From: Chelatococcus sp. HY11
Lineage (GTDB): Bacteria; Pseudomonadota; Alphaproteobacteria; Rhizobiales; Beijerinckiaceae
Length of the DNA: 64,000 bases
NCBI RefSeq assembly: GCF_018398335.1
Contig: NZ_JAHBRX010000002.1
Coordinates: 620,001 to 684,000 of the forward strand
Direction: 5' to 3'
Shown piece after piece: positions 9,956 through 32,018 of this stretch. The translations under genes and the position numbers were made by a program. The first letter of the stretch is position 1. The number at the start of each line of letters is the position of its first letter. Below the pieces are notes generated by a model. The model saw only the letters and a list, made by a program, of their open reading frames with translations, was not told where the DNA came from and did no database searches.

Positions 9956-9975
9956 ATGTCCTATGCTTATAGCAA
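9956..9975. promoter_or_regulatory. Candidate operator, cluster palindrome site A
   Basis: The sequence is ATGTCCTA TGCT TATAGCAA, an inverted repeat of the WTGTNNTA/TANNACAW type shared with six other intergenic sites in this cluster. It lies 54 bases upstream of the isochorismatase-like start (10029) and 156 bases from the divergent monooxygenase start (9800). Confidence 0.45.
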
Positions 9976-10028
9976 ATCATTGAATTCACGCCTCACACCC
10001 ACAGCAACCCTAACAAGATGAGGGTTTC

Positions 10029-10637
10029 ATGGCCGAGCACGTCAACACGCTTCTGCTGCTCGTCGATCTCCAGAACGCGTTCTGTGACGCCAATGGCTCC
10101 GTAGCCCAGCAAGGCTGGGACATCACGACCCTGGCCGAGGCCGCACACCACTGCAATCGTCTGGCTAGCGACGCTCGCGCGCGGGGCATCCCCGTCGCCT
10201 GGACCAGGATGATGTTCCGACCGGACTATTCGGATGCCGGCATCGTCGGCCGTATGCGGCCGAATCTGTGCCGTGCAGGGGGGCTGCGAGCCGGCACCGC
10301 CGATGTCGAATTGACGCCGCTCGTCAATGTCATCGCCGATGACATTGTCATCGACAAGGCACGACACTCATCGCTCTATGGCACGCCGCTCGAGGTCATT
10401 CTCAGGGCAAGGACGATCGAGCGGGTCATCGTCGGCGGCGTGACGACATCGATGTGTGTGGAGACCACGGTTCGCGACCTGGCACAACGCGACTACGAAG
10501 TCATCGTTCCCCGCGAGGCTTGCGCAGACTTCGACGCGGGACGGCACGCGGCCTCCCTGGCGGTGATGGCCTTCGGCTTCGCGCGGGTCGTGCCGATCGC
10601 AGAGACATTCATGACGCCACCCCTTCCAAGCGGTTGA
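10029..10637 (+). CDS. Isochorismatase-family cysteine hydrolase
   Basis: The 202-residue protein begins LLLLVDLQNAFCD, where the aspartate is the catalytic acid. It continues with a lysine in DKARHSSLYGT and the nucleophile cysteine in GGVTTSMCVETTVRDL, completing the Asp-Lys-Cys triad of nicotinamidase/N-carbamoylsarcosine amidase-type enzymes. Likely reactions are hydrolysis of an amide, carbamoyl or ureido bond. It is the first gene rightward of the divergent promoter region. The gene ends 94 bases before the amidohydrolase operon, which has its own candidate operator. Confidence 0.88.
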   Translation: MAEHVNTLLLLVDLQNAFCDANGSVAQQGWDITTLAEAAHHCNRLASDARARGIPVAWTRMMFRPDYSDAGIVGRMRPNLCRAGGLRAGTADVELTPLVNVIADDIVIDKARHSSLYGTPLEVILRARTIERVIVGGVTTSMCVETTVRDLAQRDYEVIVPREACADFDAGRHAASLAVMAFGFARVVPIAETFMTPPLPSG

Positions 10638-10677
10638 CACTCATCAAACGGGCGCGCCTGTAATTCAGGCTTGCTAA

Positions 10678-10697
10678 ATGTTCTAAATATATACCAA
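10678..10697. promoter_or_regulatory. Candidate operator, cluster palindrome site B
   Basis: The sequence is ATGTTCTA AATA TATACCAA, matching the cluster palindrome with one half-site mismatch. It ends 34 bases upstream of the GTG start of the amidohydrolase, where a repressor would overlap the promoter. Confidence 0.5.
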
Positions 10698-10731
10698 TAT
10701 AATAAAAGAGAATGAATAGAGGGACGATCCG

Positions 10732-11589
10732 GTGCAAGGCGTCATTGATGTCGTTGTGAATCCGTTGACACCACAGATCGTAGCGGCGCGCCCTGCGTGG
10801 ACCAAGACGTTCCACACCAAGAAGATCGGCCGCGCGGAAGAGGATGTTGCGTCGGTCACGCACGACGAGATGCTTGCCCAGATGGATGCCGCCGGCATCG
10901 AGAAAGCGTTCCTCATCGCTTGCAAGCTGGGCCAGGAGGGCACCCCCGGCGCCTGGCATATGCCTTATGAATGGATCGCCGAAGCCGTCGCGGCCCATCC
11001 CACCCGCTTCCATGGCCTTGCCGGCGTCGATCCGACCGAGGGGATGGAAGGCCTCCGACGCCTCGAATGGGCGGTCCGGGATCTTGGGTTCATCGGCGCC
11101 CACACCTATCCGCATTGGTTCGAGCTGGAGCCCAACCATCGCAAGTATTATCCATTCTATGCGAAATGCTGCGAACTCAACATTCCGATCCAGATGCAGG
11201 TGGGGCAATCACTGGTCTACTACGACAAGCGCCCGCTAAGAAGCGTCGCGAGGCCCATTCTCCTCGACGACATCGCCTGCGATTTTCCCGAGTTGAAGCT
11301 CATCGGGATTCACATCGGAATTCCATGGACGGATGAGATGATCGCGATGGCGTGGAAACATCCCAACGTCTACATCGCCTCGGATGCGCACAGCCCGAAA
11401 TACTGGCCAGCCAGCTTCATCCACTACATCAACACCTATGGCCGCCATAAGGTGATGTTCGGAACGGACTTTCCCGTTCTCGCGTTCAAGCGCACACTCG
11501 ACGAAATCGAGGCGCTTGGACTGCGGCCTGACGCGCAGAAGCTCTTTTTGCGCGACAATGCGTTGCGGGTCTATGGTCTCACTCCGTAA
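10732..11589 (+). CDS. Amidohydrolase-2 family protein (ACMSD-like fold), no HxH motif
   Basis: A 285-residue TIM-barrel protein of the amidohydrolase-related family, recognised by the LIGIHIGIPWTDE histidine strand and the C-terminal metal-site FGTDFPV. Family members usually begin with an HxH metal motif after the first strand, but here the same place reads VIDVVVNPLTPQ. If metal is bound, it is held differently. Relatives decarboxylate or hydrolyse carboxylated rings or lactones. The start is a GTG at 10732 after GAGGGACGATCC. It is the first gene of an apparent operon with a binding protein, an SMP-30 protein and a luciferase-like monooxygenase. Confidence 0.8.
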   Translation: MQGVIDVVVNPLTPQIVAARPAWTKTFHTKKIGRAEEDVASVTHDEMLAQMDAAGIEKAFLIACKLGQEGTPGAWHMPYEWIAEAVAAHPTRFHGLAGVDPTEGMEGLRRLEWAVRDLGFIGAHTYPHWFELEPNHRKYYPFYAKCCELNIPIQMQVGQSLVYYDKRPLRSVARPILLDDIACDFPELKLIGIHIGIPWTDEMIAMAWKHPNVYIASDAHSPKYWPASFIHYINTYGRHKVMFGTDFPVLAFKRTLDEIEALGLRPDAQKLFLRDNALRVYGLTP

Positions 11590-11629
11590 CCACAGAGACG
11601 TGCCAGCCAAGAAACCAGAGGTTGCCTCC

Positions 11630-12796
11630 ATGAAAAGCATTACGAACGCTCTGCTGGCTTCCGTCGCGCTCACCGCGATGCTCGGCACCGCGGCCTTGGC
11701 CGCCGACGGCACGGTGACGCTCGGTGTCGTCACAGCGCAGACAGGTCCGCTCGCGCCGGCCGGAAAATTTCAGCAGAACGGCTTCAACCTTGCCGTTGAA
11801 CAGATCAACAAGGCGGGTGGTTTCACAGTCGGCGGCAAGACCTACGACCTCGCGTTGAAAACCTACGACACACGCTGCAATGTCGCCGAAGGCGCCTCCG
11901 CGATGGAGCGGCTGGCGACCGTCGACAAGGTGCCTGTCGTGCTCGGTGAGCTCTGCAGCCCGGTCGCAGCCGCCGAGGCTCCCGTTGCCGAAGATTTCAA
12001 GGTGCCCTTGATCGTCACAGTCCCCACGGCCGGCAATCTCACGGAGCAGGGAAATCCCTATTTCTTCAGGATCAATGCCCGGGATATCCAGCTTAACGAG
12101 GGACTGGCTAAATACATCACAGATGCCAAGCTGACGCCGCTCGCCTTTCTCGCCTGGAACAACGACACCGGTCGTGGCGGTATCGAGGCCATGAAGGGCC
12201 TCCTGCCTGACAGCACGAAGATCGGCTATGTCGGCTATTTCAACGTGGGGGAGGTCGACTTCTCCAGCCATGTGACGAATATCCGCAATTCCGGCGCGAA
12301 AGCTGTCGTTCTTCTGATGGATGAGGAGCCGGGCTCCCTCGCGATCCGCCAGATTCGCGATGCCGGCGTGGATGTGCAGCTGATCGGGACCTTGGCCATG
12401 GGATCAGACCGCTTCTTGCAGCGGCTCAACGCCAAATATCTCGATGGTATGGCACAGTACAATTCCTTCCCGCCGAACAGCCCCGTTGATCGTATCAAGA
12501 CGTTCAGCACAGCGTACAAAGCTAAATTCGGTGAGGAGACGCACGGATTTGCCGCGCAATCCTACGACGCCGTCTTCCTGGCGGTTGAAGCGATGAAAGC
12601 CGCCGGCACGACAACGGATGGCGCAAAAATCCGCGATGCGCTTTCCGCGCTCACCTTCAACGGTGTCATCGGCGAAGTGAAATTTGACGGCAAGGGGCAG
12701 GCGAACCCACCGGTCTATGTGACGCAGTGGTGCGCTGATGGCACCAGAAAGATTGTGCTACCGGCCACTCTGGCTGCCGACTGCGGGAGCGGCTGA
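11630..12796 (+). CDS. Branched-chain-amino-acid-type ABC substrate-binding protein (first copy)
   Basis: The 388-residue periplasmic protein starts at MKSITNALLASVALTAMLG with a Sec signal peptide ending ALAADG. The mature start TLGVVTAQTGPLAPAG is characteristic of LivK-like proteins that bind ligands through a Venus-flytrap fold. I chose ATG 11630 because upstream in-frame codons would precede the signal peptide. It lies 40 bases after the amidohydrolase stop. It is very similar to the second binding protein at 19548 (shared GGKTYDLALK/GDKTYKVALK, RCNVAEGA, GELC, NVGEVDFSSH, FYVTQWC blocks) and lacks its own permease nearby, so both probably feed the LivHMGF proteins at 20.7-24.1 kb. Confidence 0.9.
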   Translation: MKSITNALLASVALTAMLGTAALAADGTVTLGVVTAQTGPLAPAGKFQQNGFNLAVEQINKAGGFTVGGKTYDLALKTYDTRCNVAEGASAMERLATVDKVPVVLGELCSPVAAAEAPVAEDFKVPLIVTVPTAGNLTEQGNPYFFRINARDIQLNEGLAKYITDAKLTPLAFLAWNNDTGRGGIEAMKGLLPDSTKIGYVGYFNVGEVDFSSHVTNIRNSGAKAVVLLMDEEPGSLAIRQIRDAGVDVQLIGTLAMGSDRFLQRLNAKYLDGMAQYNSFPPNSPVDRIKTFSTAYKAKFGEETHGFAAQSYDAVFLAVEAMKAAGTTTDGAKIRDALSALTFNGVIGEVKFDGKGQANPPVYVTQWCADGTRKIVLPATLAADCGSG

Positions 12797-12818
12797 TTAA
12801 ACGACTACGTGGCGCATC

Positions 12819-13742
12819 ATGCCCAGGTCACATCATGTTATTGCTGAGGGCCTCCGGTTCCCGGAAGGGCCGGTTGCCTGCGGCGACGGAAGTCTTCTCG
12901 TGGTGGAGATCGCGAGCGGCGCCCTCACGCGGGTCGGCCCTGATGGCGTCGTTCGCAGGCTCGCGACGATTGCCGGTGGTCCGAATGGCCTCGCGGTCGG
13001 GCCGGACGGCGCCTACTACGTCTGCAATAATGGAGGCTTCCAGTGGCACGAAGACAATGGCGTGCTCAGGCCGACAGGGACGCCGCCAGACTATGTAGGT
13101 GGCCGCATAGAGAGGATCGACCCCGTCAACTTCTCGGTGCGCGCTCTCTATACGGAATGTAACGGTCACCGACTTGAAGGCCCCAACGATCTCGTCTTTG
13201 ATCGAGAAGGTGGATTTTACTTCACTGACTATGGAAAAGTACGGCATCGTTGGCGCAGCCATGGTGGCGTATATTACGCGCTACCGGATGGGTCCGCGAT
13301 CATCGAAATCGCATATCCCATGCTTAGCCCGAATGGCATTGGCCTATCGCCAGATGGGGGCACGCTTTATGTCGCCGAGACGGAGACCGGGCGGCTTTGG
13401 GCATTCGACATCATCGGCCCAGGGCAGGTCCGCAAGGCCGGCTTTCCATCACCACATGGCGGGCGCTTGCTGTGTGGCCTTCCTGATTTCCAGAAATTCG
13501 ACAGCCTCGCAATCGAGCAGGCGGGCAACATCTGCGTTGCGACGCTTTTCGCTGGTGTGATTTCGGTTATCAGCCCTCTCGGTCAGCTCATACGGCAGGT
13601 GAATGTGCCCGATCTGTTCGTGACAAACATCTGCTTTGGCGGCAACGACCGACGAACGGCCTATCTGACACTGTCGAGCACTGGCAGGATTATGTCCATG
13701 GAGTGGCCGGAAGCCGGCCTTCCTCTCGCCTATGACTGCTAG
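12819..13742 (+). CDS. SMP-30/gluconolactonase/LRE-like protein
   Basis: A 307-residue six-bladed beta-propeller. Diagnostic pieces are GLRFPEGPV near the N-terminus, GGPNGLAVGPDGAYYVCNNGG, LEGPNDLVFDREGGFYFTDYGK (the Asn-Asp metal-binding turn) and MLSPNGIGLSPDGGTLYVAE. These enzymes open lactones with a divalent metal. A lactonase directly upstream of a luciferase-like monooxygenase fits a Baeyer-Villiger type sequence (ketone to lactone to hydroxy acid); that link is inference. It is spaced 22 bases from the binding protein and 11 from the next gene, so one transcript. Confidence 0.85.
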   Translation: MPRSHHVIAEGLRFPEGPVACGDGSLLVVEIASGALTRVGPDGVVRRLATIAGGPNGLAVGPDGAYYVCNNGGFQWHEDNGVLRPTGTPPDYVGGRIERIDPVNFSVRALYTECNGHRLEGPNDLVFDREGGFYFTDYGKVRHRWRSHGGVYYALPDGSAIIEIAYPMLSPNGIGLSPDGGTLYVAETETGRLWAFDIIGPGQVRKAGFPSPHGGRLLCGLPDFQKFDSLAIEQAGNICVATLFAGVISVISPLGQLIRQVNVPDLFVTNICFGGNDRRTAYLTLSSTGRIMSMEWPEAGLPLAYDC

Positions 13743-13753
13743 ACGGTGGAAAC

Positions 13754-15082
13754 ATGCCGCGTGATCGATACATGAATTTCGGCTGCATCCTCGAGAACTA
13801 CGGCAGCCATCCGGCAGCGTGGCTGGTGTCGGAGGCGCCGGTCGATAGCGCCACCGATCCGAACCATTATATCGGCCTGGCAAAACTCGCCGAAGGCGCG
13901 AAGCTCGACTTCGTGTTCGTCGCCGATACGCCATGTCTTCCGGAAGGCGACATCGAATCACTGAGCCGTTCTCCACGCTATATCAATGGCCTGGAGCCGC
14001 TGACCCTTCTCTCGGTGCTCTCTGCCCACACCAGCCATATCGGCCTGGTCGGCACCCTTTCCTCCTCCTACAACGAGCCGTTCAACGTCGCACGCGCCGT
14101 TGCATCGCTGGATCATCTCAGTGGCGGTCGCGCGGCGTGGAACGTCGTTACCACCGGCAGCCTGAACGCGCCGGCAAACTTCGGCCGCGATGCGAACCTC
14201 GACCATGCGGTGCGCTATGAAAGGGCGCGCGAATTTGTCGGGGTCGTGCGCGGTCTTTGGGATACGTGGGGCGATAGCGCCATTGTCCGTAACGTGACGG
14301 ATAGCCGGTACTTCGACCCACAGAAATTGCGTCCCCTGAACCATAAGGGAAAGCATTTCTCCGTCGCAGGCCCGCTCAATATCGCGCGCCCGCCCCAGGG
14401 CCATCCGGTCGTGGTTCAAGCTGGCGGCTCTGATCCAGGACGGGAGTTGGCCGCGGAGACCGCCGATATGGTCTTCATGGTTGAGAGTTCGCTTGAAGGA
14501 GCGCGTAGCTACTACAGTGACCTGAAGGGGCGGATGAGCAAATTCGGCCGGTGCCCCGATGAACTCAAACTGATGCAGGGTATTACGATCGTCGTCGGCA
14601 AGACTATCGCCGAAGCCGACGCCAAGACGGCCGCCTTGTCGTCCCGTATTCACGAAGATGTCGGCAAGACCGTGATCGGCACGGCGATCGGCGTGGATCT
14701 CAGTGACATGGACTTCGATGCCAGGATCCCCGCCGATCTTATCCCGGCTGAGTCCAATCGCGGCCAAACCTACCATCGCGTCATTTCACGCATGGCGATC
14801 GAGGAAAAGCTTACCATCCGGCAGATGAGCGCGCGCTTTGCCGAATCGCGGATCGGCAATACACTCAAGGGAACGCCCGAGACGATCGTTGATACGCTGG
14901 AGGAGTGGCACCAGGCCGGCGCTGTCGATGGCTTCATGCTGCGGGCTATGGCATTTCCCGACAGCTTACGCGACTTCTGCGACCTCGTCGTGCCAGAACT
15001 TCAGCGGCGTGGGCTGATGCGACAGGAATACAGCGGCAAGACTTTACGCTGCCATCTTGGTCTTGCACGGCCGGCCAATTGA
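13754..15082 (+). CDS. LLM class flavin-dependent monooxygenase (NtaA/SnaA/DszA family)
   Basis: The 442-residue protein is of the bacterial-luciferase superfamily, NtaA-type subgroup, recognised by LAKLAEGAKLDFVFVADT, the FNVARAVASLDHLSGGRAAWNVVTT block, the NFGRD turn and HPVVVQAGGSDPGRELAAETAD. Members use FMNH2 supplied by a separate reductase to oxygenate nitrilotriacetate, sulfones, dibenzothiophene or cyclic compounds. No flavin reductase gene is seen in the window. It is the last gene of the operon starting at 10732. The substrate cannot be read from sequence. Confidence 0.9.
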   Translation: MPRDRYMNFGCILENYGSHPAAWLVSEAPVDSATDPNHYIGLAKLAEGAKLDFVFVADTPCLPEGDIESLSRSPRYINGLEPLTLLSVLSAHTSHIGLVGTLSSSYNEPFNVARAVASLDHLSGGRAAWNVVTTGSLNAPANFGRDANLDHAVRYERAREFVGVVRGLWDTWGDSAIVRNVTDSRYFDPQKLRPLNHKGKHFSVAGPLNIARPPQGHPVVVQAGGSDPGRELAAETADMVFMVESSLEGARSYYSDLKGRMSKFGRCPDELKLMQGITIVVGKTIAEADAKTAALSSRIHEDVGKTVIGTAIGVDLSDMDFDARIPADLIPAESNRGQTYHRVISRMAIEEKLTIRQMSARFAESRIGNTLKGTPETIVDTLEEWHQAGAVDGFMLRAMAFPDSLRDFCDLVVPELQRRGLMRQEYSGKTLRCHLGLARPAN

Positions 15083-15177
15083 ACCGGCCAACCAATCGCA
15101 GCGTTGTCGGAACGATCAAATCCTCCCGATAACGTTTCGAGAGGATACGCTAACGTCACCACCACCGGATATCATGA

Positions 15178-16071
15178 TCAGGCGATACTTTTCTCGACTC
15201 GACGTGTTGGTTGAACGACGTCGTAACTCTTGCCAAGCGCAAGCAGCTCAGGAGTGCCGATAAGGCTGTTCAACTCATTGAAGTCAAACATACGATTACT
15301 GAATGGCGCATTGGTGCCATGCGCGGCGAGAGATCGATAGTATTCCTGCGCCGTTCGCGCAAGGGCTCTCACAATACCACCGCCAAAAATGACGATCTTG
15401 AAGCCGACCTCGCCGAGTTCTGCAGCCGAGCTAAGCGGGGTATCGCCACCTTCGACCATGTTGGCTATGAGCGGACGCAGGCTTCCAAATTGACGCCCGA
15501 TCGTCGCCATTTGCTCACGGGAGCGCGGCGCCTCGACGAACAGGATATCCGCGCCCATCTCGACGTAGAGATGGGCTCTCTCCAGAGCAGCATCAAAACC
15601 TTCGACCGCAATCGCGTCCGTGCGAGCGATGATCAAGGTTTCCTCGCTGGCGCGCGCATCCACAGCGGCCTTGACCTTGCCCGCCATCTCGCCGGCTGAG
15701 ATCAGTGACTTGTCGCGCAAATGGCCGCAGCGCTTCGGAAACGACTGATCCTCGATCTGGATGGCAGCCGCGCCGGCACGCTCGAACAACCTCACTGTGC
15801 GTCGGACGTTGAGCGCATTTCCATACCCCGTGTCGGCATCAACAATGAGCGGAACGTCGACGCGATCACGTATCTGCGTGATCGCGTCAGCAACTTCAGA
15901 CATCGATACAAGGCCAATATCAGAGCTGCCGAGGCGCGTATATGCGATCGCCGCCCCGGAAACGTAGAGTGCCTCGAAGCCGGCGGCCGCCGCAAGCGAA
16001 GCTGTCAGAGCATCGAAAATCCCGGGCGCAACCAGAGGAGCGTCTGCCGAAAGGCGGTTCCGCAAGTCCAT
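15178..16071 (-). CDS. Isocitrate lyase/PEP mutase-family enzyme (oxaloacetate decarboxylase or methylisocitrate lyase-like)
   Basis: The 297-residue TIM-barrel protein contains PGIFDALTASLAAAAGFEALYVSG, the DADTGYG Mg-binding segment, the IEDQSFPKRCGH active-site loop and ARTDA. The K-R-C-G-H motif with its cysteine is the gating loop of lyase members that cleave C-C bonds of 2-methylisocitrate, oxaloacetate-like or 2,3-dimethylmalate substrates. It is convergent with the luciferase-like gene and transcribed away from the long regulatory gap 16072-16657. A terminal C-C cleavage in the local pathway is a plausible role. Confidence 0.87.
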   Translation of the reverse strand: MDLRNRLSADAPLVAPGIFDALTASLAAAAGFEALYVSGAAIAYTRLGSSDIGLVSMSEVADAITQIRDRVDVPLIVDADTGYGNALNVRRTVRLFERAGAAAIQIEDQSFPKRCGHLRDKSLISAGEMAGKVKAAVDARASEETLIIARTDAIAVEGFDAALERAHLYVEMGADILFVEAPRSREQMATIGRQFGSLRPLIANMVEGGDTPLSSAAELGEVGFKIVIFGGGIVRALARTAQEYYRSLAAHGTNAPFSNRMFDFNELNSLIGTPELLALGKSYDVVQPTRRVEKSIA

Positions 16072-16307: not shown

Positions 16308-16327
16308 TTGTCATATCATTAGTACAA
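16308..16327. promoter_or_regulatory. Candidate operator, cluster palindrome site C (best match)
   Basis: The sequence is TTGTCATA TCAT TAGTACAA. Both half-sites fit TTGTNNTA exactly as an inverted repeat around four central bases, making this the most symmetrical copy. It lies between the divergent lyase-like gene (16071) and the LLM/Liv operon (16658). Confidence 0.55.
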
Positions 16328-16534: not shown

Positions 16535-16554
16535 TTGTTATACATTTATAATCA
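16535..16554. promoter_or_regulatory. Candidate operator, cluster palindrome site D
   Basis: The sequence is TTGTTATA CATT TATAATCA: a perfect left half and a right half with two mismatches. It overlaps a TATAAT that could be the -10 for the operon starting at 16658. Confidence 0.4.
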
Positions 16555-16657: not shown

Positions 16658-17839
16658 ATGGCTTCAATACCGCTTCGGCATGGCATGTTTCTCCCGCCAA
16701 TCCATCCGAACAAGGAGAACCCGACCCTCGCCATCCAACGCGACATGGAGCTTGTGGAACATCTCGATCGCCTTGGTTATGAAGAGGCGTGGATCGGTGA
16801 GCACCATTCATCCGGCGCCGAGATTATCGCTAGCCCAGAACTCTTCATCGCGGCCGTCGCGGAACGGACAAGGCGCATTCGGCTCGGCACAGGCGTCATA
16901 TCCCTACCCTATCACTCGCCGCTGACGGTGGCCAATCGCATCATCCAGCTCGATCACCAGACCCGCGGCCGTGTCATGATGGGCGTCGGCCCCGGGCTCC
17001 TGACGGCGGACGCGATGATGATGGGCATCGAGCCGGAACAGTTGCGCGACCGCATGTCCCAGGCGCTGGACGTTATTCTGCGGCTGCTCGATGGACAAAC
17101 CGTCACCGAGAAGACCGAGTGGTATAATCTGGTCGATGCACGCGTCCATCTGCTGCCCTACACGAAGCCGCATCTGGAAGTCTGTGTCGCCAGCACGCTC
17201 ACGCCATCCGGCGGGCGCAACGCGGGCAAATACGGCCTCGGCATGCTCTGCGTGGCGGCCACCAGCCCGACCGGCTTCGATGTGCTCGGCACGAACTGGC
17301 GCATTGCCAATGAGGTCGCCGCCGAGCATGGCCATGTCATGGATCGCTCGCGCCTTCGCCTCGCCGGGCTCACGCATATCGCAGAGACGCGTGAACAGGC
17401 GATCGAGAACGTCAAGTTCGGCCTGCGCCATTGGCTCGACTACCGCGAAGCCGTTAATCCGACGATCAAGCGCAAGACGCGCGGCGAGACTTTCGAGGGG
17501 CTGGTCGAGGCGGTCGTCAAGGATCACGGTGGCGTCATCGGCACGCCCGACGACCTGATCGCGAAAATCGAGCAGCTCTACGAAAAACAGGGCGAATTCG
17601 GTGCTTTCTTGCAAGTCGCGCATAATTGGGCCGACTTCGAGGCCACCAAGAAGTCATGGGAGCTGGTCGCGCGCTATGTCATTCCGCATTTCAGCGGCGC
17701 GAACCGTAATCGTGACGAGTCGCTGAAGTGGTCGATGGAGCACGGTATGGAGTATGGCTCGCGCTCGGCAGTCGCCCAGCGTAAAATGTTCGAGAAGCAC
17801 GAGGCCGAACAGCAAGCCAAGCAATCCCGCAAGGACTGA
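16658..17839 (+). CDS. LLM class flavin-dependent oxidoreductase (luciferase-like, limonene monooxygenase type)
   Basis: The 393-residue protein has RHGMFLPPIHP, the ELVEHLDRLGYEEAWIGEHH strand-helix, LGTGVISLPYHSPLTVANRIIQLDHQTRGRVMMGVGPG and a long C-terminal tail rich in charged residues. These blocks place it with alkanal/limonene-1,2-monooxygenase-like members of the luciferase superfamily, which use reduced flavin and O2. It is a different subgroup from the NtaA-type protein at 13754. It is the first gene of a long operon with two SDRs and a full Liv-type importer, downstream of two candidate operators. Confidence 0.9.
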   Translation: MASIPLRHGMFLPPIHPNKENPTLAIQRDMELVEHLDRLGYEEAWIGEHHSSGAEIIASPELFIAAVAERTRRIRLGTGVISLPYHSPLTVANRIIQLDHQTRGRVMMGVGPGLLTADAMMMGIEPEQLRDRMSQALDVILRLLDGQTVTEKTEWYNLVDARVHLLPYTKPHLEVCVASTLTPSGGRNAGKYGLGMLCVAATSPTGFDVLGTNWRIANEVAAEHGHVMDRSRLRLAGLTHIAETREQAIENVKFGLRHWLDYREAVNPTIKRKTRGETFEGLVEAVVKDHGGVIGTPDDLIAKIEQLYEKQGEFGAFLQVAHNWADFEATKKSWELVARYVIPHFSGANRNRDESLKWSMEHGMEYGSRSAVAQRKMFEKHEAEQQAKQSRKD

Positions 17840-17877
17840 GCGCAGACCATCTCCCAGGCTGAGTTGAAGGGCACTCA

Positions 17878-18627
17878 ATGCGCGACTTAGACAGGCGAGT
17901 GGCAGTCATAACGGGTGCCGCGTCTGGCATTGGTCTTGGCATGGTGCGGGTCTTCACTGCCGCGGGCTTTCAGGTCGCGATGTGCGATATTCGGAATGCG
18001 GAACTCGATGCTGTCTTCGGCCGTGTCGACATCCTCGCGAACAACGCCGGCGTGCTGCTGCGCGGCCGCACTGTAGAAGATGTACCGCTTGCAGACTGGA
18101 AGTGGATTGTCGGCGTCAACCTGTATGGTCCAATCAACGGGATTGAGTTTTTCCTGCCGCGGATAAGGCGTCACGGGCAAGGTGGTCATATCGTCAATAC
18201 AGCGTCGATCAGCGGCTTTCTCGTCGCCCCCGGTCGCCTCACCGCACCTTACCAGGCGACAAAATTCACGCTCGTTGCCTTATCGGAAGCGCTCCTGTCA
18301 GATCTTGCCGAAACTGGCATAGGCGTGTCCGTACTCGCGCCGGCAGGCGTGAAGACAAGCATATATCAGTCGGGCGAAGCGCGGCCGGCGCGTTTCGAGG
18401 GTCACTCGCCCGCGTTTCCCACTCCGGATACGATCAGCGAAGGGGTGGAGCCCGATGACATCGCACGTCGCGTGCTCGCGGCCATCCATAGCAGCGCGTT
18501 TTGTATCTTCACCCATGAAGATATGCGCCCATGGATGGAGGCACGTCACCGGCGAATGATGCAGGCCTATGACAAGTCTGTCCCTCCGGCAGCGCACGCC
18601 TTGTCCTCCTCGGGAGGAGTGGGATGA
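17878..18627 (+). CDS. Short-chain dehydrogenase with an internal deletion
   Basis: A 249-residue SDR with TGAASGIG (nucleotide binding), NNAG, catalytic serine in VNTASISG and YQATK. Between the second beta strand (AMCDIRNAELDAV) and FGRVDILANNAG only a few residues remain, whereas classical SDRs have roughly 45-50 there, including strand C, helix C, strand D and the adenine-contacting aspartate. The C-terminus is full length. The frame is intact, so this is either an in-frame deletion that weakens cofactor binding or a degenerate copy. It overlaps the next SDR by ATGA. Confidence 0.8.
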   Translation: MRDLDRRVAVITGAASGIGLGMVRVFTAAGFQVAMCDIRNAELDAVFGRVDILANNAGVLLRGRTVEDVPLADWKWIVGVNLYGPINGIEFFLPRIRRHGQGGHIVNTASISGFLVAPGRLTAPYQATKFTLVALSEALLSDLAETGIGVSVLAPAGVKTSIYQSGEARPARFEGHSPAFPTPDTISEGVEPDDIARRVLAAIHSSAFCIFTHEDMRPWMEARHRRMMQAYDKSVPPAAHALSSSGGVG

Positions 18628-19496: not shown

Positions 19497-19547
19497 TTAC
19501 CCGAGCCGATACAATGACGACCAAAATATAACCAAGGGGACGTAAGA

Positions 19548-20711: not shown

Positions 20712-20745
20712 CCGCATAAAATTTCCAGGATTGGAGTGAAAAGGC

Positions 20746-22625: not shown

Positions 22626-22629
22626 ACCG

Positions 22630-23379: not shown

Positions 23380-23387
23380 GGCGCGAG

Positions 23388-24134
23388 ATGAGCGGACAAA
23401 CATCCCAACCAATACTTGCCATTCGCGATCTCAAGGCCGGGTATGGCGGCGGCCGCATGATCGTCAACGGCGTTGATATCAATGTCGCCCCAGGCGAGAT
23501 CGTCTGCGTCATCGGTCAGAACGGCGCCGGCAAGTCGACTTTGCTCAAGGGCATCGTCAACCTGATCCAGGTGCGGCAGGGTAATGTGCAACTCGACGGC
23601 AGAGATGTCACCGAGCTGCCGGCCCAGAAGCTGCTGCTCGAAGGCCTGGCCTATATCCCGCAGGGCCGCAGCATATTTCCGCGGCTGACCGTCGCGGAGA
23701 ACATCAAGATGGGCGGTTACCTCATCAAGGATCGCAACGTCCTGAAACGCCGGCATGAGGAGATGGAGACGATGTTTCCGGCGCTGGCGGAACTGCGCGG
23801 TTTGCAGGCCTCGAGTCTCTCAGGCGGCCAGCAACGGCAGCTGGAACTCGCGCGGACCCTGATGATGGATCCGAAGGTTCTGATGCTCGACGAACCCTCC
23901 ATCGGGCTCGCGCCGCGCATCGTCGATCAGGTTTTCACGGTTTTGCGCGACCTCGCCAAGCTTGGAAAATCTGTTCTGATGGTGGAGCAGAATGTTCGCA
24001 AGGCGTTGGCCGCAGCCGACCGCGGCTACGTCCTTGAACTGGGCAAGGTTCGTCTTGAAGACCGCGCGCAGGCGCTTCTCGAAGACGAGCGCGTCGCGCA
24101 GCTTTATATGGGAATGCGTCCGAACGCTGCCTAG
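23388..24134 (+). CDS. livF: ABC transporter ATP-binding protein LivF-like
   Basis: A 248-residue ATPase with GQNGAGKST, AYIPQGRSIFPRLTVAENIKMG, SLSGGQQRQLELARTLMMDPKVLMLDEPSIGLAP and the closing VLELGKVRLEDRAQ. This is the standard LivF pattern. It is the last gene of the operon that begins at 16658; a hairpin lies about 60 bases downstream. Confidence 0.92.
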   Translation: MSGQTSQPILAIRDLKAGYGGGRMIVNGVDINVAPGEIVCVIGQNGAGKSTLLKGIVNLIQVRQGNVQLDGRDVTELPAQKLLLEGLAYIPQGRSIFPRLTVAENIKMGGYLIKDRNVLKRRHEEMETMFPALAELRGLQASSLSGGQQRQLELARTLMMDPKVLMLDEPSIGLAPRIVDQVFTVLRDLAKLGKSVLMVEQNVRKALAAADRGYVLELGKVRLEDRAQALLEDERVAQLYMGMRPNAA

Positions 24135-24285: not shown

Positions 24286-25851
24286 TTATGACGCGCTGGG
24301 TTCATGAGGCAGGAGGCCCCGCAATTCCCTGCGTAAGACCTTGCCCATGCTATTGCGAGGCAGCTTCTCGACAAAGATAAACTCTTTCGGCACCTTGTAA
24401 CGGGAAAGCTTACTCCGGCAAACATCGGCCAGTTCATCCGCACTGACCGTTGCGCCTTGACGCAGTCCGACGAAGGCGGCGACAGCCTCCCCCCAGTAGG
24501 CGTGGGGGATACTCGTCACAGCGCATTCAGCCACGGCGGGATGCGCAAGTAGAACTTCCTCGATTTCGCGGGGGTAGATGTTCTCGCCGCCCGAAATGAT
24601 CATGTCATTCTTGCGATCGACCAGGTAGAGATAGCCTTCTTCATCGATGCGGGCTAGGTCCCCGCTGATAAACCAGCCATCGCGGAACGATTGGTCTGTT
24701 TGTTCGGGGAGGTTAAGATAGCCTGAAAACATATAGGGCGAGGCAATCGCGAGCTCGCCGACCTCGTCAATACCCGCCTGCCGCCCGTCCTCGGTGATCA
24801 CCTTAAGGCGCGTCAAGGGAAGCGGTAGGCCGACACAGGCGATCTTTCTCAGCTGATCCTGGGGTCGCAGACATGATGTTACGCCCGCCTCGGTCGAACC
24901 ATAGCGCTCGTAGAGCTTGCCCTCGCCGAAATAGGCGATCGCTTCCTCTTTCAGCGCCTGCGACAGTGGCGCCGTGCCGGATGCGACGGTCCGCAGCGAG
25001 CGCGTGTCGAACTGGCTGGCCTTGCTGCCGAGATTGCGCAGGGCGGCGAGGTGCGTCGGAACCATATAGGCCGACGTAGCCTGTAGACGCGTAATTGCTG
25101 CAAGCAGGGTCTCGATGTTGAACTTACCGAGAATTTCGACAGTGCCGCCGAAGAATACTGGCGCCAGAGCCATGAGAAGGCCTGCACCGTGGAACATCGG
25201 GGTCGTGGCCACGGCACGATCGTCCGGCGTGTAACTGCCATGCTCCGTCGCCAGGCAAAAGGCGGAGAGCACACGGCTTCGATGAGAAAGCAACACGCCC
25301 TTGGGGCGTCCGGTCGCTCCGGATGTGTAGGGAATACTGAAAATATCAGTCTCACTGACCTCGACAGGACACAGCCTTGTCGAGGATCGGGCGAGCAGTT
25401 CCTCATAGGGCCCACCGAGTGAAATGATGCGCTCAACGCTCGGCGGGACGGAGGCTCGCGCCTTTTCCTCAAGCGCGGGATCAACAAAAAGCACCCGCGC
25501 TGCGGAATCCTCGCAGATGAAGCGAATTTCCGGCTCGGAGGCAACCGGGCCGATGGCTGCCGTGGCAACGCCCGCAGAGGACAGGCCGGCGATGATCTCC
25601 ATGTATTCGAGGCAATTCGGCGAAAGGATCGCGGCGCGATCACCGTGGCGCAGCCCCAGCCCGGCATGCGCGAGATTGGCAACCCGGTCAATCCGCTCGA
25701 TCAGCGCCGCGAAGGTGAGACGCCGCTCCCCCGCGATGATCGCCGTCTTCGACGGTGTTCTTCCGGCAGCTGCCCGAATGCCGTCGGCAACGATCATTCC
25801 CTTGGCGGACCCGCTACGAACATCGGAGAACGGAGTGTGCGAATGCATCAT
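24286..25851 (-). CDS. Acyl-CoA ligase (AMP-binding, class I adenylate-forming)
   Basis: The 521-residue enzyme activates a carboxylic acid to its CoA thioester through an acyl-adenylate. It has the P-loop-like YTSGATGRPKGV, LYERYGSTEAG, the SGDLARIDEEGYLYLVDRKNDMIISGGENIYP hinge region and the catalytic lysine in NSMGKVLRREL. These are the A3, A5, A7-A8 and A10 motifs in order. Substrate is not predictable; medium-chain or aromatic acids are common. In context it could activate the acid produced after ring opening. Cluster palindrome site E lies about 100 bases upstream of its start. Confidence 0.9.
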   Translation of the reverse strand: MMHSHTPFSDVRSGSAKGMIVADGIRAAAGRTPSKTAIIAGERRLTFAALIERIDRVANLAHAGLGLRHGDRAAILSPNCLEYMEIIAGLSSAGVATAAIGPVASEPEIRFICEDSAARVLFVDPALEEKARASVPPSVERIISLGGPYEELLARSSTRLCPVEVSETDIFSIPYTSGATGRPKGVLLSHRSRVLSAFCLATEHGSYTPDDRAVATTPMFHGAGLLMALAPVFFGGTVEILGKFNIETLLAAITRLQATSAYMVPTHLAALRNLGSKASQFDTRSLRTVASGTAPLSQALKEEAIAYFGEGKLYERYGSTEAGVTSCLRPQDQLRKIACVGLPLPLTRLKVITEDGRQAGIDEVGELAIASPYMFSGYLNLPEQTDQSFRDGWFISGDLARIDEEGYLYLVDRKNDMIISGGENIYPREIEEVLLAHPAVAECAVTSIPHAYWGEAVAAFVGLRQGATVSADELADVCRSKLSRYKVPKEFIFVEKLPRNSMGKVLRRELRGLLPHEPSAS

Positions 25852-25952: not shown

Positions 25953-25972
25953 TTGTATTATCTTTAAGACAT
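25953..25972. promoter_or_regulatory. Candidate operator, cluster palindrome site E
   Basis: The sequence is TTGTATTA TCTT TAAGACAT, matching the shared inverted repeat at 11 of 12 constrained positions if the outermost base may be A or T. It lies upstream of the leftward acyl-CoA ligase gene and just past the end of the GntR regulator gene. Confidence 0.5.
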
Positions 25973-26037: not shown

Positions 26038-26871
26038 CTACCGCTTCCCGTTCTTGGCCTCGGCCGGCTGCATTGTCAGTTCACTCAGCGTGCTGCTCAT
26101 CGTCTCCACGGTCTGCGACGGGCTCAACACCATCTCCAGTTGATAGCGATCGGGCCGGTAATAGGCCGTCAAATATTCGATTGGCTCATCAGCATGATCG
26201 CTGACGACGCGCTGCACCTTCAACAACGGCGCTCCAATCTCGGTTGAAAGCCGCGTGGCTATATTCTGATCCGCGAGCGTCGCGGTGATGCTCTGACGCG
26301 CATGACCGATTTTGACGCCTGAGCGCTTGATCAGCGACAGCATCGGCGTTCGCGCAAGACCTGTGCGATCAAATGTGCGGCCGATCCGGGCGGGAATGAC
26401 GGTGACGAGGAGAGAGATGGCGAAGTCGCCGAAATAACGCACGCGCTGCGAGTGTTGCACCTCGGTCCCAGCAGGCAGCTCAAGTGCTTCCGCCTCCAAC
26501 TGGGTCGCGGGACCGTAGCCAAACTCGATCACCTTCACCGTGGTCGTCTGGCCCATAACGGTCGCGCCCTCGAGCCACGCCGCGACAGACGCCCGCAGCG
26601 GTGGCGTGGGCGGTCGATACTTGACGATGGTGCCCCGGCCGCGAGCGCGCGACACAAGCCCGGCCAGCGCCAGCTCCGTCAACGCCCGCCGCGCTGTTAT
26701 GCGTGAGACACCGTAAAGACTGGCAACTTCATGCTCGGCGGGCAGAACATCACCAACCTTGAAAGTCCCGCCGAGAATCCCATCCCGCAGAATGAGAAAG
26801 ATCTGGTGATAGAGTGGTGCCTTGAGGTTCGCATTGACGCTGCTTCCTTCCTTGGCGCTCGTCCGCGTCAT
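26038..26871 (-). CDS. GntR-family transcriptional regulator, HutC/UTRA subfamily
   Basis: A 277-residue protein with an N-terminal winged helix (LYHQIFLILRDGILGGTFKVGDVLPAEHEVASLYGVSRITARRALTEL condensed over residues 20-66) and, after the wing RGRGTIVKY, a UTRA-type ligand-binding domain ending near residue 260. HutC-type regulators are usually repressors released by a pathway metabolite and bind short palindromes. It sits in the middle of the catabolic cluster, upstream of the acyl-CoA ligase on the same strand, and is the only regulator encoded between 5 and 34 kb. It is therefore the best candidate to bind the recurrent palindrome; none is seen directly before its own start. Confidence 0.9.
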   Translation of the reverse strand: MTRTSAKEGSSVNANLKAPLYHQIFLILRDGILGGTFKVGDVLPAEHEVASLYGVSRITARRALTELALAGLVSRARGRGTIVKYRPPTPPLRASVAAWLEGATVMGQTTTVKVIEFGYGPATQLEAEALELPAGTEVQHSQRVRYFGDFAISLLVTVIPARIGRTFDRTGLARTPMLSLIKRSGVKIGHARQSITATLADQNIATRLSTEIGAPLLKVQRVVSDHADEPIEYLTAYYRPDRYQLEMVLSPSQTVETMSSTLSELTMQPAEAKNGKR

Positions 26872-27219: not shown

Positions 27220-27239
27220 ATGATATAACTATATAACAA
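27220..27239. promoter_or_regulatory. Candidate operator, cluster palindrome site F
   Basis: The sequence is ATGATATA ACTA TATAACAA; the right half is perfect and the left half has one mismatch. It is roughly 440 bases upstream of the FAD oxidase start and 350 bases from the GntR gene start, so its target is less clear than for the other sites. Confidence 0.4.
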
Positions 27240-27505: not shown

Positions 27506-27680
27506 CCCAAGTCCAATAACATTGGAAGCCCCGTCGAGGAAGAGTTCCGCGCTGCCACACGCAATGGGCGACTTATCGCCTAGGGTTAAAGCACAAGTAT
27601 AGCCCTGCGAGCCCGCGCTAGCGATGCTAGCTCTGTCCAGCCGCAAGGAACCTGACACCTAAACCATCTGAGGTTGACAC

Positions 27681-29195
27681 ATGCTCGCCGACAAGTTGAT
27701 TGAGATTGCCGGCAAGGACAATGTTTTTTCAGATAGACGATCACAGGAAGTCGGCGGCTCCGATCTGTTCGTTTGGAATGATCAGGTCTTGCCTGATATT
27801 GTGATAAAGCCTGCCACAACAGACGAAGTAGCTGAGATCGTATCCTTTCTGGCCGCCAGCGAAACCGCTATCGTGTCGAGGGGTGGCGGCCTGTCCTACA
27901 GTGCTGGCGTCGTCCCGGCGCGCAAGGCCGTTGTCATCGATACGAAGCGCATCGACCACGTCCATGTCGCGGCGGATGATCTCTACGCGGTCGTCGGCGC
28001 GGGCTGCACATGGCAGCGACTGGCTGATGCCTTGAAACCCCATGGGCTACGGCCCCAGATCGCGGTTCCCATTTCGGGCGGCCATTCGACCGTAGGCGGC
28101 GCGGTTTCGCAGAATGTGCCGGGTTCGATGGATGGCATCATCGGTTTTACAGTGGTATTGGCAGACGGCTCGACAATACGCACGGGCAGCTGGGCGACCC
28201 AGCAATCCACCCCTTTCTATCGCAACAACGGCCCTGATCTCACGGGGCTCTTTCTGGGGGACTGCGGTGCCTTCGGCGTCAAGACCGAGGTAGCCTTGCG
28301 GCTTATACCTGAGCGACCCTGCAGCTTTGCCTCCTTCACCTTTCCGACGACCGCCGCGATGTTGCAGGCTCTCACCGGCGTGCAGCATGCCGGTGTTGCC
28401 ACCCGATGCTTCGTGATCGACCGCGATAAAGGTGAGCTGGCCGGCAAGGTCAATTTCGGCGAGACGGTGCAGACGGTCAGGGCCGTCGCGGCCCAGGCTG
28501 GCTCGATCGGCCGGGCGCTCCGCGATGTCACCGGTCTCAAGCGTGCGCAGTCCGAAATCGCGGGCGCCCCCTGGTCCATGCATCTCATCATGGAAGGTGT
28601 CAGCGAAGCGGCAGCCGAGGCCTCCGCCGTCATCGCGCGCGGCATATGCCAGAAATCCGGAACGGAAATCGTCGCCTCCATCGCCAAGGCGGCGCGGGCG
28701 CGCCCCTTCAATCTCCGCGGTTTCCTTGGGCCCGCCGGCGAACGCTGGGTGCCGGTGCATGGCCTCATGTCGCTCTCAAGCGCGCGGCAGGCGATGGCCG
28801 ACATGGAGGCGTACGCGGCGGGGATCAACGCGGACCTCCTTCGCCACGGCATCCGGCTGAACTGGCTCTTATCCTCCCAGGGCGCCTATGTGCTGATCGA
28901 GCCCATGATGTATTGGCCTGACGCGGTTGGCCCGGTCCATGACAACTACTTGCCGATCGACAGCCGGCCCGGCCAGAAGCAATTTCCCGCCAATCCCGCG
29001 GCGCGAGAGCTCGTCACGCGGACGCGAACGGCCCTGCGCGATATCATGGACCGCAATGGAGCGATCCATTTGCAATCCGGCCGCTACTACAATCTCGCGG
29101 AAGCCATGGACGCGCAGTCTCGCGGCCTGCTGGAACGCGTCAAGACAATGCTCGACCCCTCGCATTGTCTCAATCCGCGCGTGCTCGGCCTATGA
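27681..29195 (+). CDS. FAD-linked oxidase (FAD-binding PCMH domain, GlcD/vanillyl-alcohol oxidase-like)
   Basis: The 504-residue flavoprotein has a PCMH FAD domain: VIKPATTDEVAEIVSFLAASETAIVSRGGGLSYSAG near the N-terminus, AVPISGGHSTVGGAVSQN, and a substrate domain ending in the C-terminal MLDPSHCLNP usual for this family. It would oxidise an alpha-hydroxy acid, alcohol or phenolic compound. An ATG follows TGAGGTTGACAC. It is convergent with the dipeptide-type permease genes and carries its own long upstream region. Confidence 0.87.
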   Translation: MLADKLIEIAGKDNVFSDRRSQEVGGSDLFVWNDQVLPDIVIKPATTDEVAEIVSFLAASETAIVSRGGGLSYSAGVVPARKAVVIDTKRIDHVHVAADDLYAVVGAGCTWQRLADALKPHGLRPQIAVPISGGHSTVGGAVSQNVPGSMDGIIGFTVVLADGSTIRTGSWATQQSTPFYRNNGPDLTGLFLGDCGAFGVKTEVALRLIPERPCSFASFTFPTTAAMLQALTGVQHAGVATRCFVIDRDKGELAGKVNFGETVQTVRAVAAQAGSIGRALRDVTGLKRAQSEIAGAPWSMHLIMEGVSEAAAEASAVIARGICQKSGTEIVASIAKAARARPFNLRGFLGPAGERWVPVHGLMSLSSARQAMADMEAYAAGINADLLRHGIRLNWLLSSQGAYVLIEPMMYWPDAVGPVHDNYLPIDSRPGQKQFPANPAARELVTRTRTALRDIMDRNGAIHLQSGRYYNLAEAMDAQSRGLLERVKTMLDPSHCLNPRVLGL

Positions 29196-29283
29196 GGCCG
29201 GGTGACTTGCTGGAATGACCAGTTTGTGTCGGAGCCCGCTTTGAACAGTTTCCCAGAATCTTTATCTATGCTGGACAGCGCTC

Positions 29284-30162
29284 TTATCTTTCACGCAAGC
29301 GCGGATCCAGGGCGTCGCGGAGACCATCGCCGACGAGGTTCACGGCGAGGATGGCGATGGACAGGAAGATCGCCGGGAAGGCAATCATATAGGGCTTGAC
29401 CTGCCACAGTGCGCGGCCTTCGGCCATGATGTTGCCCCAGGACGGTATGGTGGGCGGCAGACCAGCGCCAATGAAGGACAGAATGGCTTCTGTCAGCATA
29501 GCCGCTCCGCAAATATAGGTGGCCTGAATAATGACCGGCGCCATGATATTGGGAAGGATGTGGCGCAGCATGATCCGCGGGACGCTTACGCCTGTTGCCA
29601 CGGCGGCGAGAACGAAAGGCTGCTCTCGCAGGCTGAGCAAGGCGCCGCGCACCACGCGGGCAACGCGTGGGATCTCCGATATCGTGATCGCGAGAATGAC
29701 ATTTCCAAGCGATCCGCGGGTCAACGTCATCAAGGCGATCGCAAGCAGGATGGGCGGGATCGACATCAATCCATCCATCATCCGCATGATGATGCCATCG
29801 GTCCAGCGGATGTAACCCGCAGTCATGCCCACGATGATCCCGGCCGCAGCCGATAGAACTGCGACGGAAAGCCCGACAATCAATGATATACGCGTGCCGT
29901 AGATCACGCGCGAATAAATGTCCCGGCCAAGTTGATCGGTGCCGAACCAGTAAAGTTCCGATGGCGCGCGGTTGCGCCGCGCTGGCGACAATGCCGCGGG
30001 ATCCACGGTTCCAAGCAGGGGCGCCGCGACTGCGATGAGGAGGAGGACGAGAAGTATGGTTGCTCCGAGGAGCAAGGGGCGATGGCTCGCCAGACGCCGC
30101 AATGTCTGTCCCCGGCGTTCGGAAGAGACTTCAAGCGGGAGGGTTGCGTGTTCGACTGTCAT
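29284..30162 (-). CDS. Dipeptide/nickel-type ABC permease, DppC-like
   Basis: A 292-residue membrane protein with an N-terminal cytoplasmic stretch, a first membrane segment near residue 30-50, the DppC block FGTDQLGRDIYSRVIYGTRISLIVG and the late GAGLPPTIPSWGNIMAEGR loop. It forms a channel with the DppB-like protein encoded 9 bases upstream. No ATPase gene follows: the next gene is the convergent FAD oxidase. Confidence 0.9.
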   Translation of the reverse strand: MTVEHATLPLEVSSERRGQTLRRLASHRPLLLGATILLVLLLIAVAAPLLGTVDPAALSPARRNRAPSELYWFGTDQLGRDIYSRVIYGTRISLIVGLSVAVLSAAAGIIVGMTAGYIRWTDGIIMRMMDGLMSIPPILLAIALMTLTRGSLGNVILAITISEIPRVARVVRGALLSLREQPFVLAAVATGVSVPRIMLRHILPNIMAPVIIQATYICGAAMLTEAILSFIGAGLPPTIPSWGNIMAEGRALWQVKPYMIAFPAIFLSIAILAVNLVGDGLRDALDPRLRER

Positions 30163-30171
30163 GACACGCCC

Positions 30172-31113
30172 TCAGTACCGAATTCGGGGATCAAAGATGG
30201 TATAGAGAATATCCACGACAAGATTGATCAGCACGTAAGTGATGCTGAAAATCAGCACGATACCCTGGATGACCGGATAGTCGCGCCTCAGAATGGCGTC
30301 AACGGTGAGGCGCCCGAGACCGGGAATGGCGAAAACGCTTTCGGTGACTACCGTGCCGCCGATCAGCAGCGCCACACCGATGCCGATGACCGTAATGATG
30401 GGAACCGCCGCATTCTTCAATGAGTGGACGAATAGGACGGCCCCCTGCCCAAGGCCCTTGGCGCGCGCCGTCCGTACATAGTCCTGCGTCAGGACCTCGA
30501 TCATCGCGGCCCGCGCAATGCGCGCGATGAGCGCGATATAGACCCCCGATAACGCAAGAACAGGCAGGATCAGATTTCCCAAAAACGGGAGAATTCCGGC
30601 GCTTAACGGCGTGTAGCCCTGAACGGGCAGCCATCCGAGCTGAACGGCGAAAACATAAGCAAGTAGATAGCCGACAACGAAGACGGGAACTGAAAAGCTG
30701 AAAACCGCTCCGGCAGTGACAAAATGGTCAACCCACGAGCCCCTGCGCCAGGCGGCAACGACACCGATGGGGACCGCGATGACAACCGACAGGACCATGG
30801 TCAGCACCATCAACGACAAGGTCGGGCCTACCCGTTGGCCGATCATATGGGCGACCGGCAGGTTCGTGAAAATGGACTGCCCAAGGTCGCCCCGGGTAAC
30901 CTGCAGGAGCCAGTCCCAGAAACGAATGAGAAACGGCTGGTCGAGCCCGAGTGCCTGTCGGATCCGCGCGACATCGTCCGCGCTCGCATGATCCCCGGCG
31001 ATGATCAGCGCGGGGTCGCCGGGCGCGAGATAGAGCAAGCTAAAGACGAAGAACGCCACGAACAACATCACCGGAATGGTCGATAAGACGCGACGTATGC
31101 AGTAAATCAACAT
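30172..31113 (-). CDS. Dipeptide/nickel-type ABC permease, DppB-like
   Basis: A 313-residue membrane protein with the DppB start (RRVLSTIPVMLFVAFFVF), PGDPALIIAG, LGLDQPFLIRFWDWL, the ATPase-docking region MIEVLTQDYVRTARAKGLG and TVVTESVFAIPGLGRL. It is transcribed after the SDR at 31945 and before the DppC-like gene in one leftward unit. The binding protein that should serve it is encoded divergently at 32143. Confidence 0.9.
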   Translation of the reverse strand: MLIYCIRRVLSTIPVMLFVAFFVFSLLYLAPGDPALIIAGDHASADDVARIRQALGLDQPFLIRFWDWLLQVTRGDLGQSIFTNLPVAHMIGQRVGPTLSLMVLTMVLSVVIAVPIGVVAAWRRGSWVDHFVTAGAVFSFSVPVFVVGYLLAYVFAVQLGWLPVQGYTPLSAGILPFLGNLILPVLALSGVYIALIARIARAAMIEVLTQDYVRTARAKGLGQGAVLFVHSLKNAAVPIITVIGIGVALLIGGTVVTESVFAIPGLGRLTVDAILRRDYPVIQGIVLIFSITYVLINLVVDILYTIFDPRIRY

Positions 31114-31168
31114 CTTGATTCTCAGTCCGGCATGTCAGAGCGCGGCCGCCAGGCCAACGATTACAGGA

Positions 31169-31945
31169 TCAGGCCTGGATCGACATGCCGCCATCGACGA
31201 GCAACACCTGCCCGGTGACGAAAGCACTCGCCGGTGAAACCAGGAAAAGCGCGGCGCCCGCAATATCCTGCGGTGTCGCCCACCGCCCCAGTGGTGTCCT
31301 CTGTTTCACAAAGGCATCGACCGCCGGATCAACCGCCAGGGTTTCTGTCATCGCGGTGCGCACGACGCCAGGAGCGACAACGTTGCAGCGAATGCCGCGC
31401 GGCCCGAGATCGACCGCGAGGGCACGCACCAGCCCGGCAAGTCCGGCCTTGGTCGCCGCATAGAGCGCATTGTTCGGCCGGGCGATCTGGCCGAGCATGG
31501 ACCCTGTAAACAGGATGCGCCCTCCCCCGCGCGCCTGCATAGACGGCGCGACCGCTTGCGCCAAAACCAAGGCCGCGCTGAGGTTGACATCCATCAAGCG
31601 GGCCATGTCGGCCTTGCCAAACTGCCCAAGCGGCTTGCGTAACGACTGTCCGGCATTGCCGATCGCAATATCGAGGCCGCCATGGCGCTCCACGATCGTC
31701 GCAACAGCCGCCTCGACCGCTGCGGTATCCGTGACGTCGAACGGGAGCGCTGAAACCGACAATCCCTCCCGCGCGAGCTCAGCCCGGCTGGCCTCGAGTT
31801 GTTCAGCATCACGCGCGTTCAAAATGACATGCGCGCCCGACTTAGCCAAAGCAACGGCGATAGCCCGCCCGATGCCGCGTGATGCCCCGGTGACAAGCGC
31901 GATGTCCCCGGACAGGCGAAAATAATTCGTCTCTTCCGACTGCAA
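31169..31945 (-). CDS. Short-chain dehydrogenase (gluconate-5-dehydrogenase/FabG-like)
   Basis: A 258-residue classical SDR: TGASRGIG, NARD, FDVTD, IGNAGQ (a variant of NNAG), catalytic serine in LFTGSMLG, YAATK, PGVVRT and C-terminal TGQVLLVDGGMSIQA. An NAD(P)-dependent alcohol/ketone oxidoreductase. It is the first gene of the leftward unit containing the two dipeptide-type permeases, an unusual pairing that suggests it acts on the imported compound. Confidence 0.88.
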   Translation of the reverse strand: MQSEETNYFRLSGDIALVTGASRGIGRAIAVALAKSGAHVILNARDAEQLEASRAELAREGLSVSALPFDVTDTAAVEAAVATIVERHGGLDIAIGNAGQSLRKPLGQFGKADMARLMDVNLSAALVLAQAVAPSMQARGGGRILFTGSMLGQIARPNNALYAATKAGLAGLVRALAVDLGPRGIRCNVVAPGVVRTAMTETLAVDPAVDAFVKQRTPLGRWATPQDIAGAALFLVSPASAFVTGQVLLVDGGMSIQA

Positions 31946-31998
31946 AGAAGAAAACCCCTCAAACTCGGCCTTAAACAGCTCTTGCGGTTCGTGTTTGT

Positions 31999-32018
31999 TT
32001 GTATTGTAAATATAACAT
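31999..32018. promoter_or_regulatory. Candidate operator, cluster palindrome site G
   Basis: The sequence is TTGTATTG TAAA TATAACAT. It lies in the 197-base divergent region, 54 bases upstream of the SDR/permease unit and 125 bases upstream of the binding-protein gene, so it could control both directions. Confidence 0.5.

Follow-up and report, generated by a model that had tools for sequence, protein, structure and literature searches.

Seven palindromes in a catabolic gene cluster of Chelatococcus as predicted operators of a HutC-type GntR regulator

A cluster of catabolic genes in Chelatococcus sp. HY11 carries seven similar palindromes, which raises the question of which protein, if any, recognizes them. 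The cluster lies within a stretch of 64,000 nucleotides (nt) of contig NZ_JAHBRX010000002.1 (positions 620,001 to 684,000), hereafter called the window. A sequence-only reading had proposed that the palindromes join the cluster into a single regulon of a GntR protein of the HutC type, encoded at 26038-26871 on the minus strand. Our analysis leads to a similar answer. The seven palindromes are very probably operators of this regulator, which would most likely repress about ten transcription units until a metabolite of the pathway releases it.

All seven palindromes were verified by matching the window to WTGTNNTA-N4-TANNACAW, and they were located where they had been reported, at 9956 (site A), 10678 (B), 16308 (C), 16535 (D), 25953 (E), 27220 (F) and 31999 (G). 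Sites C and E fit the pattern exactly, A, B, F and G have one mismatch, and D has two. When up to two mismatches were allowed, the window contained eight matches against 0.61 expected and none of 100 shuffles reached eight, a count that is partly circular because the pattern itself was derived from the seven sites. The eighth match, at 18556, lies inside an open reading frame (ORF). Leave-one-out matrices gave every left-out site a higher score than any non-site position in the window, with the tightest margin for site A (15.5 versus 14.7 for the best non-site). Furthermore, a matrix built from 54 distinct sites at HutC loci of other genomes returned exactly these seven as its top hits, with scores from 30.5 to 15.7 and a next-best score of 9.1; its training sites came from a search with the pattern in relaxed form, and seven coding-like strings had been removed beforehand. 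The motif had been described as absent before the other loci of the window, and both types of matrix agree, as they found no good sites elsewhere in it.

The whole genome (6.95 Mb) was scanned with two patterns, one strict and one relaxed. With at most one mismatch, the strict pattern occurred at 15 sites, of which six were within the cluster; among the other nine, three had a paralogous HutC gene at a distance of about 3-4 kb. The number of matches genome-wide is no more than expected by chance; what counts is their concentration in the cluster. Neither the matrices in the window nor the clustering of the pattern matches across the genome revealed an equal density of good sites elsewhere.

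By its domains, as predicted from the sequence, the regulator is a HutC-subfamily protein. It matched PF00392 (GntR) at 1.5e-17, with 63.4 bits against a cut-off of 27, and the C-terminal UTRA family PF07702 at 2.2e-30, with 105.8 bits against a cut-off of 23.8. It also matched the profile of NagR/YvoA (1.2e-40), as well as DasR. The AlphaFold2 (AF2) model shows a winged helix-turn-helix (wHTH), a linker of low confidence at residues 88-108, and the UTRA fold as expected, with a mean predicted local distance difference test score (pLDDT) of 73.9. Among the NCBIfam models of named HutC equivalogs (HutC, PhnF, TreR and others), the best all remained under their cut-offs (e.g. 98.9 versus 220 for TIGR02018, HutC).

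We used the best 80 of 585 homologs from named genomes of other Proteobacteria, with 37-52% identity to the regulator, to investigate the link between motif and gene. At a score of at least 14, the seven-site matrix found a site between -300 and +20 of the aligned start in 51 of these homologs; shuffled upstream sequences gave 1.0 on average and never more than 3. Across the 80 loci, the 500-bp bin just before the HutC gene held 56 sites and the bin directly after the gene 15, with none inside the gene itself. The other upstream bins shown held 0-2 sites each, and 29 sites were spread over the 825 kb that lay more than 4 kb away. If the 400 bp past the gene are also counted, 56 of the 80 loci had a near site and only six a far site; near sites were retained in 24 of 35 clusters when the homologs were collapsed at 70% protein identity. 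Homologs with a site occur in Bosea, Sphingomonas, the Halomonas group, Polaromonas/Acidovorax, Roseobacter and other relatives. On plasmids, five of 11 loci, taken from 20 of 577 matching records, had a site at most 150 bp upstream. For the site-less homologs, inspection of the list of upstream regions by eye showed no shared alternative palindrome.

The paralogs in the Chelatococcus genome point in the same direction. Its four nearest paralogs (30-42% identity) have a site with a score of at least 19 in each fetched locus, and three of these four loci first surfaced as genome-wide pattern matches. The orthologous paralog loci in three same-genus genomes (G001-G003) carry the same sites, except for one (L071) that has none. 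Among the more distant GntR paralogs of the genome, none of 12 loci reached a score of 14, with several of these loci matched only partly. In a tree of 102 regulators, 92 rows formed one group with a value of 99 in the Shimodaira-Hasegawa-like approximate likelihood ratio test (SH-aLRT). Within this group, 61 rows had a near site, eight a far site and 23 none, whereas none of the ten rows outside it had a site. Hence, the motif upstream of the homologs, its peak within 500 bp and its rarity or absence at distant GntR/HutC loci all support a single regulon of the HutC-type regulator, as far as sequence comparison can tell. The clade-wide distribution of the motif and the unusual spacing of its half-sites go beyond the original proposal.

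This spacing was investigated with the pattern WTGNNNTA-Ns-TANNNCAW, in which s was varied from 0 to 12. In the 80 loci, s = 4 occurred 48 times in 24 loci, and any other s only 0-7 times. Similarly, TGT-N12-ACA was present in 43 of the 80 homolog upstream regions, but in only one of 30 distant control regions. Other gaps were found in 0-12 loci, except for a gap of 7 (19 loci). By inspection, we attribute this second peak to a Burkholderiales version, ATGTCCTATTGACAGGACAT, in which TGT-N7-ACA lies within the same site. Among the 35 clusters, TGT-N12-ACA occurred in 16 and other gaps in 0-7. The typical HutC spacing GT-N4-AC was rare, with TGT-N4-ACA in five of the 80 upstream regions and the canonical form GTNTANAC in none of them. 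The conserved G is located at -8 from the centre of the palindrome rather than at -4, and therefore the half-sites would, by arithmetic, be 14 nt apart. In the Burkholderiales homologs (L099, L105, L106, L111, L113, L128, L135, L136, L140, L142, L146, L148, L149, L151), the variant site around ATGTCCTATTGACAGGACAT closely precedes the regulator gene, and one of its inner steps is CA instead of TA.

Most of the sites are also conserved in the three relatives, whose copies of the regulator are 94-96% identical. At A, B, C/D, E and G, 97-100% of the key bases agree with those of the window, compared to 62-83% in the remainder of the same intergenic regions. Sites A, B and E have unchanged key bases in all three genomes, and C and D are conserved as well, with a copy of D in G001 that is nearer to the consensus. 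Site G is identical in G001 and G002, the two that aligned, and was not found in the stretch of G003 that was examined. Orthologous promoters thus retain six of the seven sites wherever an alignment was obtained, which was the check suggested earlier; the exception is site F. In G003, site F has expanded into overlapping tandem copies (ATGATATAACAATATAACAATATAACAATATAACAT; L047:149-184), a possible multiplication of the operator.

Known systems show how this predicted operator departs from the usual HutC form GT-N4-AC, alongside the few exceptions in print. With the HutC subfamily (NagR/YvoA, DasR, HutC) the present clade shares the wHTH and UTRA domains and, as predicted here, palindromic operators with a conserved G and T in each half-site, and multi-operon catabolic regulons. 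In most HutC sites, however, GT and AC are 4 nt apart instead of 12, according to PMC4494728, which also includes exceptions. One of these is SdhR, whose operator TCTTATGTCTTATATAAGACATAAGA holds the same kind of half-site, ATGTCTTA, but, as read from the printed operator alone, with half-sites 2 bp apart (GT-N10-AC) and extra outer symmetry (PMC4494728). Our searches turned up no other SdhR paper. YtrA-type operators (PMC4494728) likewise have GT and AC far from the palindrome centre. In contrast to the full UTRA domain and proposed multi-operon catabolic regulon of the present protein, YtrA proteins carry a short C-terminal domain, and their targets are mostly single ATP-binding cassette (ABC) transporter operons. 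NagR has a flexible linker and recognizes half-sites that are separated by 6 nt (PMC4333415). In the open literature, with subscription papers and RegPrecise outside the search, we recognized no description of a GT-N12-AC operator or of its HutC clade.

In our judgement the chances are evenly balanced that the dimers of a broad proteobacterial HutC clade adopt a different geometry on DNA. The flexibly tethered DNA-binding domains would sit on half-sites 14 instead of 6 nt apart and would not touch, unlike those of NagR, bending of the DNA would be allowed by the invariant inner pyrimidine-purine (TA) steps, and the clade would control many catabolic clusters of Alpha-, Beta- and Gammaproteobacteria for which searchable papers describe no characterized regulator. 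Two candidate causes of the wide spacing were rejected. In 75 of the 92 clade rows the linker is 26-27 residues long, versus 24-27 outside the clade, a difference that is too small. The presumed equivalent of NagR Arg48, residue 57, is Arg in all 92 clade rows, yet also in seven of the ten rows outside.

The sites, their conservation, their exact spacing and the association of the motif with the HutC clade were all computed, and several explanations can be set against these results. It is improbable that the sites are operators of another, non-HutC regulator linked to such catabolic clusters: across the 80 loci they centre on the HutC gene although the neighbouring genes vary between loci, and their presence tracks the HutC clade on the tree, even if in the window several hundred bp separate the site from the gene of the regulator and two LacI genes of the same genome adjoin other relaxed-pattern matches. 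Still less credible is the idea that AT-rich promoter elements, by chance or through shared -10 sequences, were taken for a palindrome. In this GC-rich genome the sites are rich in AT, and promoter-like hexamers overlap several of them, but promoter composition predicts neither that a spacer of exactly 4 bp and dyad symmetry recur from genus to genus nor that the symmetric key bases are conserved, and the spacing tests already contradict this idea. A reversed control pattern was, however, as common genome-wide as the true one (18 versus 15 matches).

Several results weigh against the HutC-type regulator as the binding protein. Column-permuted palindromic matrices, at the same threshold, found sites at 6.8 of the 80 loci on average and at up to 41, since permutation turns some of them into AT-rich words that resemble promoters; the exact-spacing tests are independent of this problem. 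No site, near or far, was found at 18 of the 80 loci, nor at four of seven further homolog loci with 38-45% identity (L062, L065, L067, L068), while three of 19 distant loci from other genomes reached a score of 14 (L029, L035, L038). In the distant controls, too, GT-N12-AC was slightly the commonest gap (32 hits versus 13-27). The tree was a quick one, for which the program warns of long branches. Site F is present in G002 and G003 but not in G001. Finally, the nearest site in the window is about 350 bp from the start of the regulator gene, and autoregulation is therefore less clear here than elsewhere.

From these data we infer direct binding, repression, a ligand and the transcription units. 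A dimer of the HutC-type regulator would recognize WTGNNNTA-N4-TANNNCAW as two TGT/ACA half-sites 12 bp apart, with its DNA-binding domains about 8 bp further apart than on the GT-N4-AC operators that are usual for HutC proteins. The bound protein would most likely block, by occlusion, the promoters of transporters, flavin monooxygenases, amidohydrolases, short-chain dehydrogenases/reductases (SDRs), the acyl-coenzyme A (CoA) ligase and a lyase, and perhaps also repress its own gene, until a pathway metabolite binds the UTRA domain and the regulator leaves the DNA. Promoter occlusion with release by a metabolite is the simplest mechanism. In seven of 11 site-gene pairs, ties included, the operator is overlapped by the best promoter-like match, although most of these matches reach only 8 of 12 positions. 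The 10-of-12 match for the phosphoenolpyruvate (PEP) mutase-like gene, TTGACA-17-AATGAT at 16343-16315 on the minus strand, overlaps site C. It is unlikely that the HutC protein binds the sites as an activator or has mixed roles at different promoters. The positions of site C, 340 bp from the start of the luciferase-like monooxygenase (LLM) gene, and of site F, 461 bp from the start of the flavin adenine dinucleotide (FAD) oxidase gene, would suit activation, but NagR and other HutC-type regulators whose function is known act as repressors (PMC4333415), and the overlap with promoter-like matches, weak as these are, suggests occlusion.

According to Pfam annotation and site positions, and with transcription units delimited by gene order only, the proposed regulon extends over 7350-33732, and the data suggest about ten units under the seven sites. 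The first five units are the FAD monooxygenase with a hydrolase, the isochorismatase-like gene, the amidohydrolase operon, the PEP-mutase-like gene and the LLM-Liv operon. The other five are the acyl-CoA ligase, the regulator, the FAD oxidase, SDR-OppB-OppC and SBP_bac_5.

Predicted operator A (9956-9975) lies between the divergent FAD monooxygenase gene 8304-9800 (-) and isochorismatase-like gene 10029-10637 (+). The sequence-only reading had assigned it to the latter, but it may serve both. Predicted operator B (10678-10697) is upstream of the amidohydrolase/binding protein/SGL/NtaA-type LLM operon 10732-15082 (+), in which the LLM gene at 13754 passes the NtaA/DmoA cut-off. Predicted operator C (16308-16327) lies between the PEP-mutase-like gene 15178-16071 (-) and the divergent LLM operon 16658-24134 (+), and more likely serves the former than the LLM operon to which it had been assigned. 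That operon (LLM/SDR/SDR/Liv ABC) has predicted operator D (16535-16554; leave-one-out score 18.9) upstream. Predicted operator E (25953-25972) is upstream of the acyl-CoA ligase gene 24286-25851 (-), and F (27220-27239) lies between the divergent regulator gene, which starts at 26871, and FAD-linked oxidase gene 27681-29195 (+). Predicted operator G (31999-32018) separates the SDR-OppB-OppC genes 29284-31945 (-) from the divergent SBP_bac_5 gene (+). As the first ORF call at 31999 begins within site G, a later ATG at 32143 was taken as the start. The region 29284-33732 holds OppB/OppC-type permeases and SBP_bac_5, with no adjacent transporter ATPase among the ORFs scanned and no further search made.

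At other loci, 66 ORFs adjoining sites were chosen out of 148 mechanical candidates; they included ten aconitase-type dehydratases, eight tautomerases, eight FAD_binding_2 proteins, six TonB receptors, four HMGL-like proteins and three CoA-transferases. Neighbourhoods of plasmid homologs (L171, L173, L175, L176, L179) contained leuCD-like, isocitrate lyase/PEP mutase, hydantoinase/oxoprolinase, isochorismatase or MmgE/PrpD genes, with varied transporters of the Liv, tripartite ATP-independent periplasmic (TRAP) or tripartite tricarboxylate (TTT) type. These plasmid neighbourhoods suggest a recurring pathway, and from all these enzyme families our guess is that the substrate may be an alkylmaleate- or maleamate-like acid. 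Among the relaxed-pattern matches in the Chelatococcus genome, near-palindromes TTGA-TTTA-ACGT-TAAATCA adjoin LacI-type genes at G000:C2:87278 and G000:C2:214928 (L155, L156), which looks like a separate LacI operator. Another match, at G000:C2:313380 (L157), is flanked by a zinc alcohol dehydrogenase gene and an aldehyde dehydrogenase gene that diverge from each other.

These results turn a guess on one cluster into a usable operator rule for a large HutC-type clade. The regulons of many catabolic clusters of unknown substrate would become readable directly from sequence, and a single protein with a set of spacer variants makes it possible to test the limits on half-site spacing in one GntR subfamily.

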